From: Thiothrix sp.
GTDB taxonomy: Bacteria; Pseudomonadota; Gammaproteobacteria; Thiotrichales; Thiotrichaceae
Reading direction: 5' to 3'
Assembly (NCBI RefSeq): GCF_028714775.1
Contig: NZ_JAQTLS010000003.1
Location: 124,001 to 188,000, forward strand
DNA: 64,000 nt
The notes beneath the pieces were generated by a model that was given only the letters and a program-made list of their open reading frames with translations, was not told the origin of the DNA and made no database searches. Below are positions 6,172 through 30,416 of this stretch, in pieces. Position numbers and translations under genes: made by a program. The stretch's first letter is position 1, and each line of letters opens with the position of its first letter.

Positions 6172-8240
6172 CAGTCACGCACCCAATCTTCAACCAAACG
6201 GCTCGGCTCGTGCGGCGATTCCGACAGCGGCGGGACAGCAAGGCCATTCAGATGCCGCCATGCCACGCTCAACATATCGCCAATCACCACCCACAACACC
6301 ACGACGAAAAACACCGTCAGCACCGCATCCAATTGCTGGTTGAAAATCAGTTGCGGCGCAACCGCTGCTTTTTCCGGGGGCAATGCCCCTGCTGCCAACT
6401 TCGCCGCCATATCATTGGCAGCGGACAAGAAACCGACCCGCACATCCGCGCTGAAAATTTTCTCATACGCCGCCGTGGTCGTGACAATCGCCAGCCACGC
6501 CAGCGGCAAACCCGTCACCCAAGCGTATTTCAACTTACCCGACTTGATCAGGATGCCCGTGCCCACCGACAGCGCAATCGCCGCCAGCATCTGGTTGGAA
6601 ATGCCGAACAGAGGCCACAAGATATTCACCCCACCATTCGGGTCAATCACGCCGATGTAGAGGAAATAACCCCACGCCGCCACGATCACCCCGGAAGACA
6701 GCAATACCGACGGATACCACGAAGTTTGCCCCAGCTTAGGCGAGAAATTCCCCAGAAAATCCTGCAACATGAAACGCCCAACCCGCGTCCCCGCATCCAG
6801 CGTGGTGAGGATGAACACCGCCTCGAACATGATCGCAAAGTGATACCACATTGCCAGCAAGCCTTGCCCGAAGGCACTGCCAAAAATACTCGCCATACCC
6901 ACTGCCAATGACGGCGCACCGCCCGTGCGGGCAAACAGGGTCTTTTCCCCCATCGCCTGCGCCAACGCACTCATTTGCTCAACCGTGACAGGGAAACCCC
7001 ACGAAGAAATCTTAGCAACAGCATCCACCGCTTCCTTGCCTACCACCCCAGCAGGGCTGTTGATGGCGAAAAATACGCCCGGATCAAGCACCGTCGCCGC
7101 AATCATCGCCATGATCGCCACGAACGATTCCAGTAACATGCCACCGTAACCGATCATGCGGATGTCGCGTTCGTTCGCCAGCAATTTCGGCGTCGTCCCC
7201 GACGCAATCAGTGAGTGGAAACCCGACACCGCGCCGCAAGCAATGGTAATAAACACAAACGGGAACAATGCCCCACCGAAAATCGGCCCCGTACCATCCA
7301 CAAACTGGGTCATGGCAGGCATTTTCACCGACGGCGACAACACCACAATCGCAATCGCCAGCAAAAAGATCGTCCCCAGTTTCATGAACGTCGACAGGTA
7401 ATCACGCGGCGCGAGCAGCAACCACACAGGCAGTACAGCGGCAATGAAACCGTAGCCAATTACAAACCATGCCAGCGTCAGCCCCTCATGGTCGAACCAC
7501 TGGCTCAAGGTCGCATTATGATCAACCCAGCCACCGCCCACCACCGCAAACAGCAGTAACCCCACGCCTAGCATGGAACCTTCCAACACCCGTCCGGGGC
7601 GGATGTCACGCATGTACAAGCCCACCAGAATCGCTACCGGAATGGTCATTGCCACGGTAAACGTTGCCCACGGGCTGTGCTTCATGGCATTCACCACCAC
7701 CAGCCCCAGCACCGCAATCAGGATCACCATGATAATCAGCGTACCCACCAGCGCCGCCATGCCGCCGATTGCACCCAATTCATCCCGCGCCATTTGTCCC
7801 AAACTGCGTCCGTCGCGGCGCATGGAAAAGAACAGAGTGGTCATATCCTGTACCGCGCCACCCAGCACCGCGCCGAACAGTATCCACAAGGTTCCCGGCA
7901 AATAACCAAACTGCGCCGCCAGCGTTGGCCCAATCAGCGGCCCTGGGCCTGCAATCGCGGCAAAATGATGCCCAAACACCACCCATTTGTTGGTGGGTAT
8001 AAAATCATGCCCATTGTTGAAACGCTCTGCCGGAGTCGCACGGGTTTCATCCACCACCAGCACTTTGGCGGCAATCCACGCAGCATAAAAACGGTAGGCT
8101 AAGGCGTAGACGCACACGGCAGCGGTGACAAACCAGAGGGTATTGATATTTTCGCCCCGGTTTAGGGCAATGCCGCCAACTGCCGCCGCGCCGAGCAGCG
8201 CAACGGTCAGCCAAATAAAATTGCGGATTAGCGTATTCAA
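6171..8240 (-). CDS. cstA: Carbon starvation protein CstA (peptide/pyruvate transporter family)
   Basis: 689 aa multi-TM protein with GHHFAAIAGPGPLIGPTLAAQFGYLPGTLWI. Confidence 0.95.
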   Translation of the reverse strand: MNTLIRNFIWLTVALLGAAAVGGIALNRGENINTLWFVTAAVCVYALAYRFYAAWIAAKVLVVDETRATPAERFNNGHDFIPTNKWVVFGHHFAAIAGPGPLIGPTLAAQFGYLPGTLWILFGAVLGGAVQDMTTLFFSMRRDGRSLGQMARDELGAIGGMAALVGTLIIMVILIAVLGLVVVNAMKHSPWATFTVAMTIPVAILVGLYMRDIRPGRVLEGSMLGVGLLLFAVVGGGWVDHNATLSQWFDHEGLTLAWFVIGYGFIAAVLPVWLLLAPRDYLSTFMKLGTIFLLAIAIVVLSPSVKMPAMTQFVDGTGPIFGGALFPFVFITIACGAVSGFHSLIASGTTPKLLANERDIRMIGYGGMLLESFVAIMAMIAATVLDPGVFFAINSPAGVVGKEAVDAVAKISSWGFPVTVEQMSALAQAMGEKTLFARTGGAPSLAVGMASIFGSAFGQGLLAMWYHFAIMFEAVFILTTLDAGTRVGRFMLQDFLGNFSPKLGQTSWYPSVLLSSGVIVAAWGYFLYIGVIDPNGGVNILWPLFGISNQMLAAIALSVGTGILIKSGKLKYAWVTGLPLAWLAIVTTTAAYEKIFSADVRVGFLSAANDMAAKLAAGALPPEKAAVAPQLIFNQQLDAVLTVFFVVVLWVVIGDMLSVAWRHLNGLAVPPLSESPHEPSRLVEDWVRD

Positions 8241-28927: not shown

Positions 28928-29201
28928 AGGCTAAACTCCTAATCTGAGGATATGCGGATGTTGGGCGCTTCACCATCCCACGAACCCAACGTGATTACCA
29001 GCAGAGATTGCAGCTTCCCGGCAGACGCCCACCCGCGCATTTTTCTCCGCAGCAGGGGCGCTGCCCCTGCACCCCGTAGCGCGAGCGGCTTCGCCAAAGT
29101 CTGGCGCTGCTTCCGCGCAACGCGCCTGCCTTTGGCTACACCGCCCGCGCAAGGATGCCGCCTCCGGCGGTTGCGGCTTCGCCGCCCTGCCCGGCCTTAG
29201 C

Positions 29202-30416
29202 TCAATGACCTAAAAGCAAACGGAAGCCACAGTTGCTGCCACGGTAAACAGGCCCGCCCCTGAAACGGTAGGCAGAACGGCAGTACCTGCCGTTGTCGTA
29301 CCACGAGCCGCCGCGAACGACGCGCTCAACGCCCGTTTGTGAACCCTCCGGGTTCGTTACCGGCTCCGCCGGGTAAGAACCGTAACAATCTTGACACCAT
29401 TCCCACACATTGCCGTGCATTTCGTGCAAACCCCAAGCATTCGGAGGGTAGCTTCCCACTACTCTGGTTTTACCATTGGTATTCCATTCATCCCACTTTC
29501 CTGAGTAATTCACCCTGTCCAGATTCAAATCATCCTTGCCACCAAAGCTGAAGGCGCTGGTTGTCCCCGCACGGCAGGCGTATTCCCACTCTGCTTCCGT
29601 TGGCAAACGCAAGCTCACACCCGTCACCAGCGAATTCAGCTTTTGGATAAAGCCTTGCACGTCATTCCAACTGACCATTTCCACCGGATTGTTGGGACTA
29701 CCCTTGAAATGGGCGGGATTATTGCCCATCACCGTCTGCCACAAGGCTTGGGTGCAAGCTGTATCCGCCAGCCAGAAACCTTGCGTTAGGATCACTTTGT
29801 GCTGAGTTTCACTATCGAGACGCCCCGGTTCTGACGGCGGCGAACCCATCAGGAATGTGCCGGGTTTGATCTGACGGAAGCGTTGGATGATACCTTTCAC
29901 ATTCAAATCAGCGTAATGACCGTATTGGTCATCGCCTGCCGCGCTTGCCCATGCGGGTTTAGATGGTCGGGTGACAACGGGGGGCGTGCTAATGACGGGT
30001 GGAGCGGATGGCGTTGCGGTTTTCTCACCGACCAAAGTATGGATTTGGGCGGACAACTTCGTGAAATCGGCATGGTTAGTCTCACCGCCCCACGTGATGA
30101 AATTACCTGCCTGCACGATCTGAAAACCAAACGGCGGTTTGACATCATCCAAACGGATCGGTAACAAAACACCCCGATGCTTGCCTTCAATGGCTTCTTC
30201 AATGACCCACTCTGAATGCACGGAAGATGCCGACCATGCCACCACTACGCAGCGGCTTTCACTGACTGCCTTACCAATCACTTGTTGCCAGTGTTTTCCA
30301 ATCGGGACTGAACGGTGATCCCAAAACACCGACCAGCCTTGTTGCTCCAATGCCTTCACCAACGGCATCAGGCGTTCGCGGTCTTGGGTCGAATAACTGA
30401 GAAAAATGTCGTACAT
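29202..30416 (-). CDS. TIR domain fused to FGE/SUMF1-type (C-type-lectin-like) domain; candidate DGR variable protein
   Basis: [46 protein letters not shown]...[14 protein letters not shown]-like: [12 protein letters not shown]...[14 protein letters not shown]...[15 protein letters not shown]...[16 protein letters not shown]...[37 protein letters not shown]. Start at internal Met 30416. Confidence 0.9.

Follow-up and report, generated by a model that had tools for sequence, protein, structure and literature searches.

A TIR-lectin gene of Thiothrix as a remote DGR target with probably halted diversification

Does a bacterial gene that joins a TIR domain to a lectin-like C-terminus owe its last codons to a DGR encoded elsewhere in the genome, and can these codons still be rewritten? 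The question is raised by one gene in a 64,000-nucleotide stretch of a Thiothrix sp. assembly (the window), which a reading of the sequence alone, hereafter the original prediction, had taken for a diversifiable sensor wired to a TIR effector. DGR-diversified lectin sensors linked to TIR or other effectors are already known. The clade-5 DGR conflict systems known from multicellular bacteria, here Thiohalocapsa PB-PSB1, have local and remote targets and degenerate reverse transcriptases (RTs), and DGR 2 of that organism has a CHAT + TIR target (Dore et al. 2024, PMC10907252). Cyanobacterial DGR variable proteins carry grafted N-terminal domains, with TIR-like domains among the listed fusions (PMC7517822). 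Dore et al. 2024 make no mention of Thiothrix in their text (PMC10907252), and within the open-access literature searched there was no paper naming both Thiothrix and DGRs. What is new here is the stand-alone remote TIR-lectin target of Thiothrix.

The gene (Table 1) likely starts with the ATG at position 30416 on the minus strand, so that the protein opens with MYDIFLSY, and other Thiothrix carry full-length homologs. Pfam recognizes TIR_2 at aa 4–109 (E 5e-20) and FGE-sulfatase at aa 182–401 (E 9e-45). The TIR fold matches too, and E74, which aligns in sequence with the NADase glutamate of AbTIR and Roq1, is a candidate catalytic residue. For the lectin domain the top PDB match is TvpA (2y3c), both by sequence (E 5e-25) and by fold (E 8e-14); the model used for fold comparison has a mean pLDDT of 75, with low confidence in the region of the variable repeat (VR). 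TvpA is a surface-type protein and, unlike the Thiothrix protein, has no TIR domain. The active-site cysteine pair of FGE (C336/C341 in the human enzyme) is incomplete: the motif reads GGSWYD, and the first cysteine is replaced by an aspartate at a residue that is variable in the VR. The domain is therefore unlikely to be an enzyme, and this replacement, together with the likeness to TvpA in sequence and fold, bears out the earlier view of it as a binding scaffold. The last 34 codons likewise read as first given. From the proposed invariant scaffold (GGSW, CRSA.R, CGFR), however, the C of CGFR has to be removed, given that the template has CTT there.

Table 1 Features of the TIR-lectin gene and its surroundings (window coordinates) and of RT genes with internal deletions (locus coordinates).
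Feature	Position	Strand	Basis or remark
TIR-FGE/CLec gene, 404 aa, remote DGR target	29202..30416	−	ORF without internal stops
TIR domain, ~aa 1–130, W-x-x-x-E motif (W70...E74)	30027..30416	−	Pfam, alignment, fold
FGE/SUMF1-type C-type-lectin domain, aa 182–401	29214..29873	−	Pfam; TvpA 2y3c top PDB match
Variable repeat, 125 nt homologous to C31 TR	29208..29332	−	TR/VR alignment
Diversified VR core, adenine-derived substitutions	29230..29300	−	TR/VR alignment
VR-type base of putative IMH	29209	−	TAGGTC in VRs, TAGCTC in class-A TRs
GCGGC-GAA-GCCGC hairpin, putative cruciform, 3' of VR	29173..29185	−	motif counts
Second hairpin, CCGCC-GGA-GGCGG	29158..29170	−	read from sequence; also after C5 VR
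RT genes with internal deletion	L025:6503-7291; L050 ~6250-6729; L052 ~6285-7075	− (all)	

The 3' end of the gene has five strong matching places in its own assembly (the window itself, C5:63196, C31:12810, C31:10343 and C31:11348). At C31:11348-11466 lies an adenine-rich template repeat (TR) of the kind that the original prediction proposed to search for. It is 86% identical to the last codons of the gene, closely follows an RT gene, falls outside any FGE gene and has AAC at most of the variable codons. Over 125 nt the window VR differs from this TR at 18 positions, 14 of which are TR adenines (hypergeometric P = 6e-8), and in the reverse test, with the window VR as the template, none of the 18 mismatches falls at A. 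Among the 23 adenine-free codons of the TR, 21 are unchanged in the VR, and one of the changed codons is the constant IMH difference. A chance origin of the adenine pattern is excluded. We show that the gene is a remote DGR target, its VR tied to the C31 TR by adenine-specific replacement. The 3'-terminal segment is thus a DGR variable region as predicted, although the homology extends beyond the proposed 29202-29303 and the mutable codons, at most sites derived from AAC, also include GAG to GGG and GAT to GTT.

The remaining three VRs of the genome are biased in the same way against the C31 TR (P = 2e-9, 5e-8 and 6e-5). This TR matches two local targets and the window gene, and less closely the TIR-lectin gene on C5, the VR of which is a better fit to a T. 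fructosivorans-type TR (P = 1e-8) than to the C31 TR (P = 6e-5). In two RT-intact relatives, TR and VRs mismatch at 65 positions, 60 of them at A, and all but one of the remaining five fall on the constant IMH base.

The VRs also carry 3' marks of their own. All four VRs of the genome have the VR-type 3' base, and all four are followed by a GCGGC-GRA-GCCGC hairpin with a 5-bp stem and a GRA triloop, which follows none of the TRs; a longer 3' flank is likewise restricted to the four VRs. The hairpin 13-mer occurs once in the window against 0.03 expected, and five times in the 4.3-Mb genome, with four of the five copies 3' of VRs. The fifth copy, on C43, was set aside as a chance match with no FGE gene nearby. 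At 29158-29185, on the 3' side of the VR, the window has two hairpins in tandem, each with a 5-bp stem and a GNA triloop. GNA triloops are unusually stable in DNA. Homing in the Bordetella phage DGR needs a hairpin 3' of the VR with stems of 7–10 bp and a GRNA loop, and the Thiothrix stem is shorter than that (PMC3240598).

Hypervariability could be assessed between species. The TIR gene is absent from other Thiothrix SelO loci (~1.5 kb of flank on each side), which rules out a vertically inherited, conserved site for the window gene. Because no ortholog of the gene occupies this site, its paralog and the orthologs of the C5 TIR-FGE gene were used. Two further genomes have orthologs of the C5 gene in synteny with it; the neighbours resemble an alpha/beta-hydrolase gene on one side and a histidinol-phosphate aminotransferase gene on the other (names by eye). 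Comparison of the C5 gene with its ortholog in genome G006 gives pN 0.157 and pS 0.596 for the FGE body, whereas in the VR core 26 differences are nonsynonymous and 1 is synonymous. This agrees with the predicted confinement of hypervariability to the VR, here for the C5-site orthologs. The VR cores of the two paralogs, in the window and on C5, differ by 19.5 nonsynonymous versus 0.5 synonymous changes. In a control FGE pair from genomes without class-A RT (G012 and G013), the VR is conserved about as well as the body.

The core genes on C31 are a MoxR-like AAA gene, a gene for a 1049-aa protein with an FGE domain in its C-terminal region and a VR, an HRDC ORF (E 2e-17) adjoining the RT, the RT, the TR, and a gene for a 274-aa FGE-only target that also carries a VR; the TIR-FGE genes of the window and of C5 are remote targets. 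By Pfam, the locus has the MoxR-like AAA and neither vWA nor VMAP. A template and an RT elsewhere in the genome had been proposed, and TR, HRDC accessory and RT gene are indeed found on C31, but the RT is without its catalytic core.

Thiohalocapsa PB-PSB1 shares with Thiothrix the C-terminal FGE/CLec VRs, the trans-acting local and remote targets, degenerate RT loci and a TIR effector. The C31 layout, compared at the level of gene order only, is that of DGR 8 in clade 5A (MoxR-like ATPase, long-N-terminal target, short CLec-only target). In Thiothrix, by contrast, a lone remote gene joins TIR directly to a single CLec with no STAND/NTPase or CHAT, the accessory is HRDC, and the RT was lost by a clean in-frame deletion and not by a transposon (all PMC10907252). 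The MoxR-like ATPase beside an FGS/CLec target on C31 recalls the VMAP/MoxR ternary systems with DGR (Kaur et al. 2020, PMC7159879), from which C31 differs by having no vWA/VMAP by Pfam and the window gene by lying outside the operon. The Treponema denticola TvpA DGR (PDB 2Y3C; PMC4891356) has a lectin domain, an HRDC gene overlapping the RT and remote targets in common with Thiothrix, as well as core components that are repeatedly gained and lost. Cyanobacterial DGR proteins (PMC7517822) also join a modular signalling domain to a CLec VR and include remote variable proteins, but they belong to another phylum, in which kinases and caspase-like domains are commoner fusions.

The explanation we consider very likely is that the gene is a remote DGR target encoding a one-polypeptide TIR-lectin sensor-effector, the diversification of which appears to have recently stopped. 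The lectin domain would bind a ligand with its variable face, and ligand contact would gather the TIR domains, which, once assembled and given their NADase-type glutamate, may deplete NAD or make a signal. The protein would then act in conflict with phages or rivals; sensing, NAD cleavage and defence are roles that we infer. A DGR-made sensor not for defence but for adhesion, kin recognition or filament/rosette signalling is possible, if doubtful. Thiothrix is filamentous, a search with defence-system models found none fitting the protein over its full length, and cyanobacterial DGR targets have been interpreted as regulatory (PMC7517822). The C31 core locus, however, has the MoxR and lectin layout of predicted conflict systems. 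TIR domains of bacteria are, moreover, often immune effectors.

Whether the sensor can still be diversified depends on the RT. The RT of this genome is 238 aa long compared with 335 aa in the intact copies of T. fructosivorans (on plasmid pTfr446) and genome G010, which served as same-genus references; all share a common start, and the intact copies have YMDD. Alignment to the intact RTs reveals a 291-nt in-frame deletion, with 97 codons including the GLPIGSLTSQ and YMDD motifs missing. The missing segment is found nowhere else in the assembly, and searches with RVT_1 and with the intact RTs gave no other DGR-type RT. Since the catalytic core is gone and a second DGR RT did not turn up, diversification in trans seems to have ended recently, leaving the VR frozen. 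The predicted diversifiability via a remote RT and template therefore holds for the past; the sensor was once diversifiable and, in the present assembly, where the one DGR-type RT found has lost its catalytic core, is probably no longer so.

The deletion was read from a draft assembly of 70 contigs rated 100% complete, and the DGR may still be active if the deleted form arose in assembly or belongs to a subpopulation, or if an unassembled RT acts in trans. In the RT remnant, 18 synonymous versus 4 nonsynonymous codon changes on its own branch show that constraint is not relaxed, and the loss is therefore either recent or due to the assembly or a subpopulation. Nothing is missing from the TR, the HRDC gene, the targets or the hairpins, and Thiohalocapsa long reads show coexisting intact and broken DGR variants (PMC10907252). 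Continued activity is nevertheless unlikely, given that neither the missing segment nor a substitute RT was found in an assembly of such completeness and that the VRs have drifted from the TR outside adenines: non-adenine, non-IMH mismatches number 3, 3, 6 and 13 in the four VRs of this genome, but 0–1 in the VRs of the two RT-intact relatives. The drift fits halted homing, though older or replaced TRs would produce it equally well.

The RVT_1 matches on three further contigs were set aside by eye as candidate trans-acting RTs: that on C45 resembles a group II intron RT, that on C6 adjoins a Cas1-like gene, and that on C4 belongs to a different kind of RT, 636 aa long. At L002 (G000:C6:105213-105821) a 280-aa RT lies beside a Cas1-like gene and is possibly a CRISPR-associated RT.

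Internal deletions are present in three DGR RT genes, namely class A of this genome (L025) and classes B and C of G009 (L050 and L052). Their 5' breakpoints lie within ~11 codons of one place, and examination of the breakpoints for a repeat-mediated origin gave no clear repeat. In L050 the RT passes straight into TR sequence. An intact class-A DGR with RT, TR and targets (L045, G004:C5) resides on the 446-kb plasmid pTfr446 of T. fructosivorans (G004), a possible route of DGR spread.

In 9 of 16 Thiothrix genomes no DGR RT was found at the search sensitivity used, and seven of these nine still have VR-like FGE genes. One of them, G005, has an FGE target (L223, G005:C3) in whose VR the first variable codons are still AACAACAAC. 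Further FGE C-termini in the genome under study, one fused to TIR, are L092 (G000:C21:32264-33517) and L097 (G000:C3:32278), with adenine bias against the class-B TR of G011 (P = 3.5e-5 and 1.4e-4). They seem to be orphan VRs whose class-B TR is missing from this genome, where a search for such a TR found as its best match the class-A TR.

The loss of the RT, the absence of the gene beside SelO in other Thiothrix and the retention of VR-bearing genes by RT-less relatives could also mean that the TIR-lectin gene is decaying without current function. We regard this as highly improbable, as the ORF is intact with its TIR glutamate motif retained, the body is constrained between paralogs and orthologs, and the frozen VR is conserved between G012 and G013.

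An ordinary FGE-like C-terminus untouched by a DGR has next to no probability: the GGSW...RSA.R...GFR scaffold is common to ordinary FGE paralogs, but the control paralogs on C20, C1 and C13 of the same genome have no adenine bias against the C31 TR (P 0.3–0.7), which rules out ordinary paralogy, and the same-genome TR with adenine-directed mismatches, the accessory gene, the VR-specific hairpin and the nonsynonymous VR divergence all argue against it.

The remote TIR-lectin target with probably halted diversification is a minimal, one-protein form of a diversified receptor, consisting of a variable lectin and a TIR domain of the type linked to cell suicide. We also raise the speculative and rather improbable idea that the Thiothrix DGR RT is a dispensable, switchable module, with recurrent deletions of its catalytic segment, such as the three with neighbouring 5' breakpoints, fixing useful TIR-lectin specificities and lineages alternating between diversifying and frozen receptor states. 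If true, RT loss in Thiothrix would resemble the stopping of mutation after affinity selection. Thiothrix offers cultured species as well as genomes with an intact, a recently broken or no RT, and what ligands DGR-diversified sensors bind and whether RT loss freezes selected specificities hence become testable within one genus.
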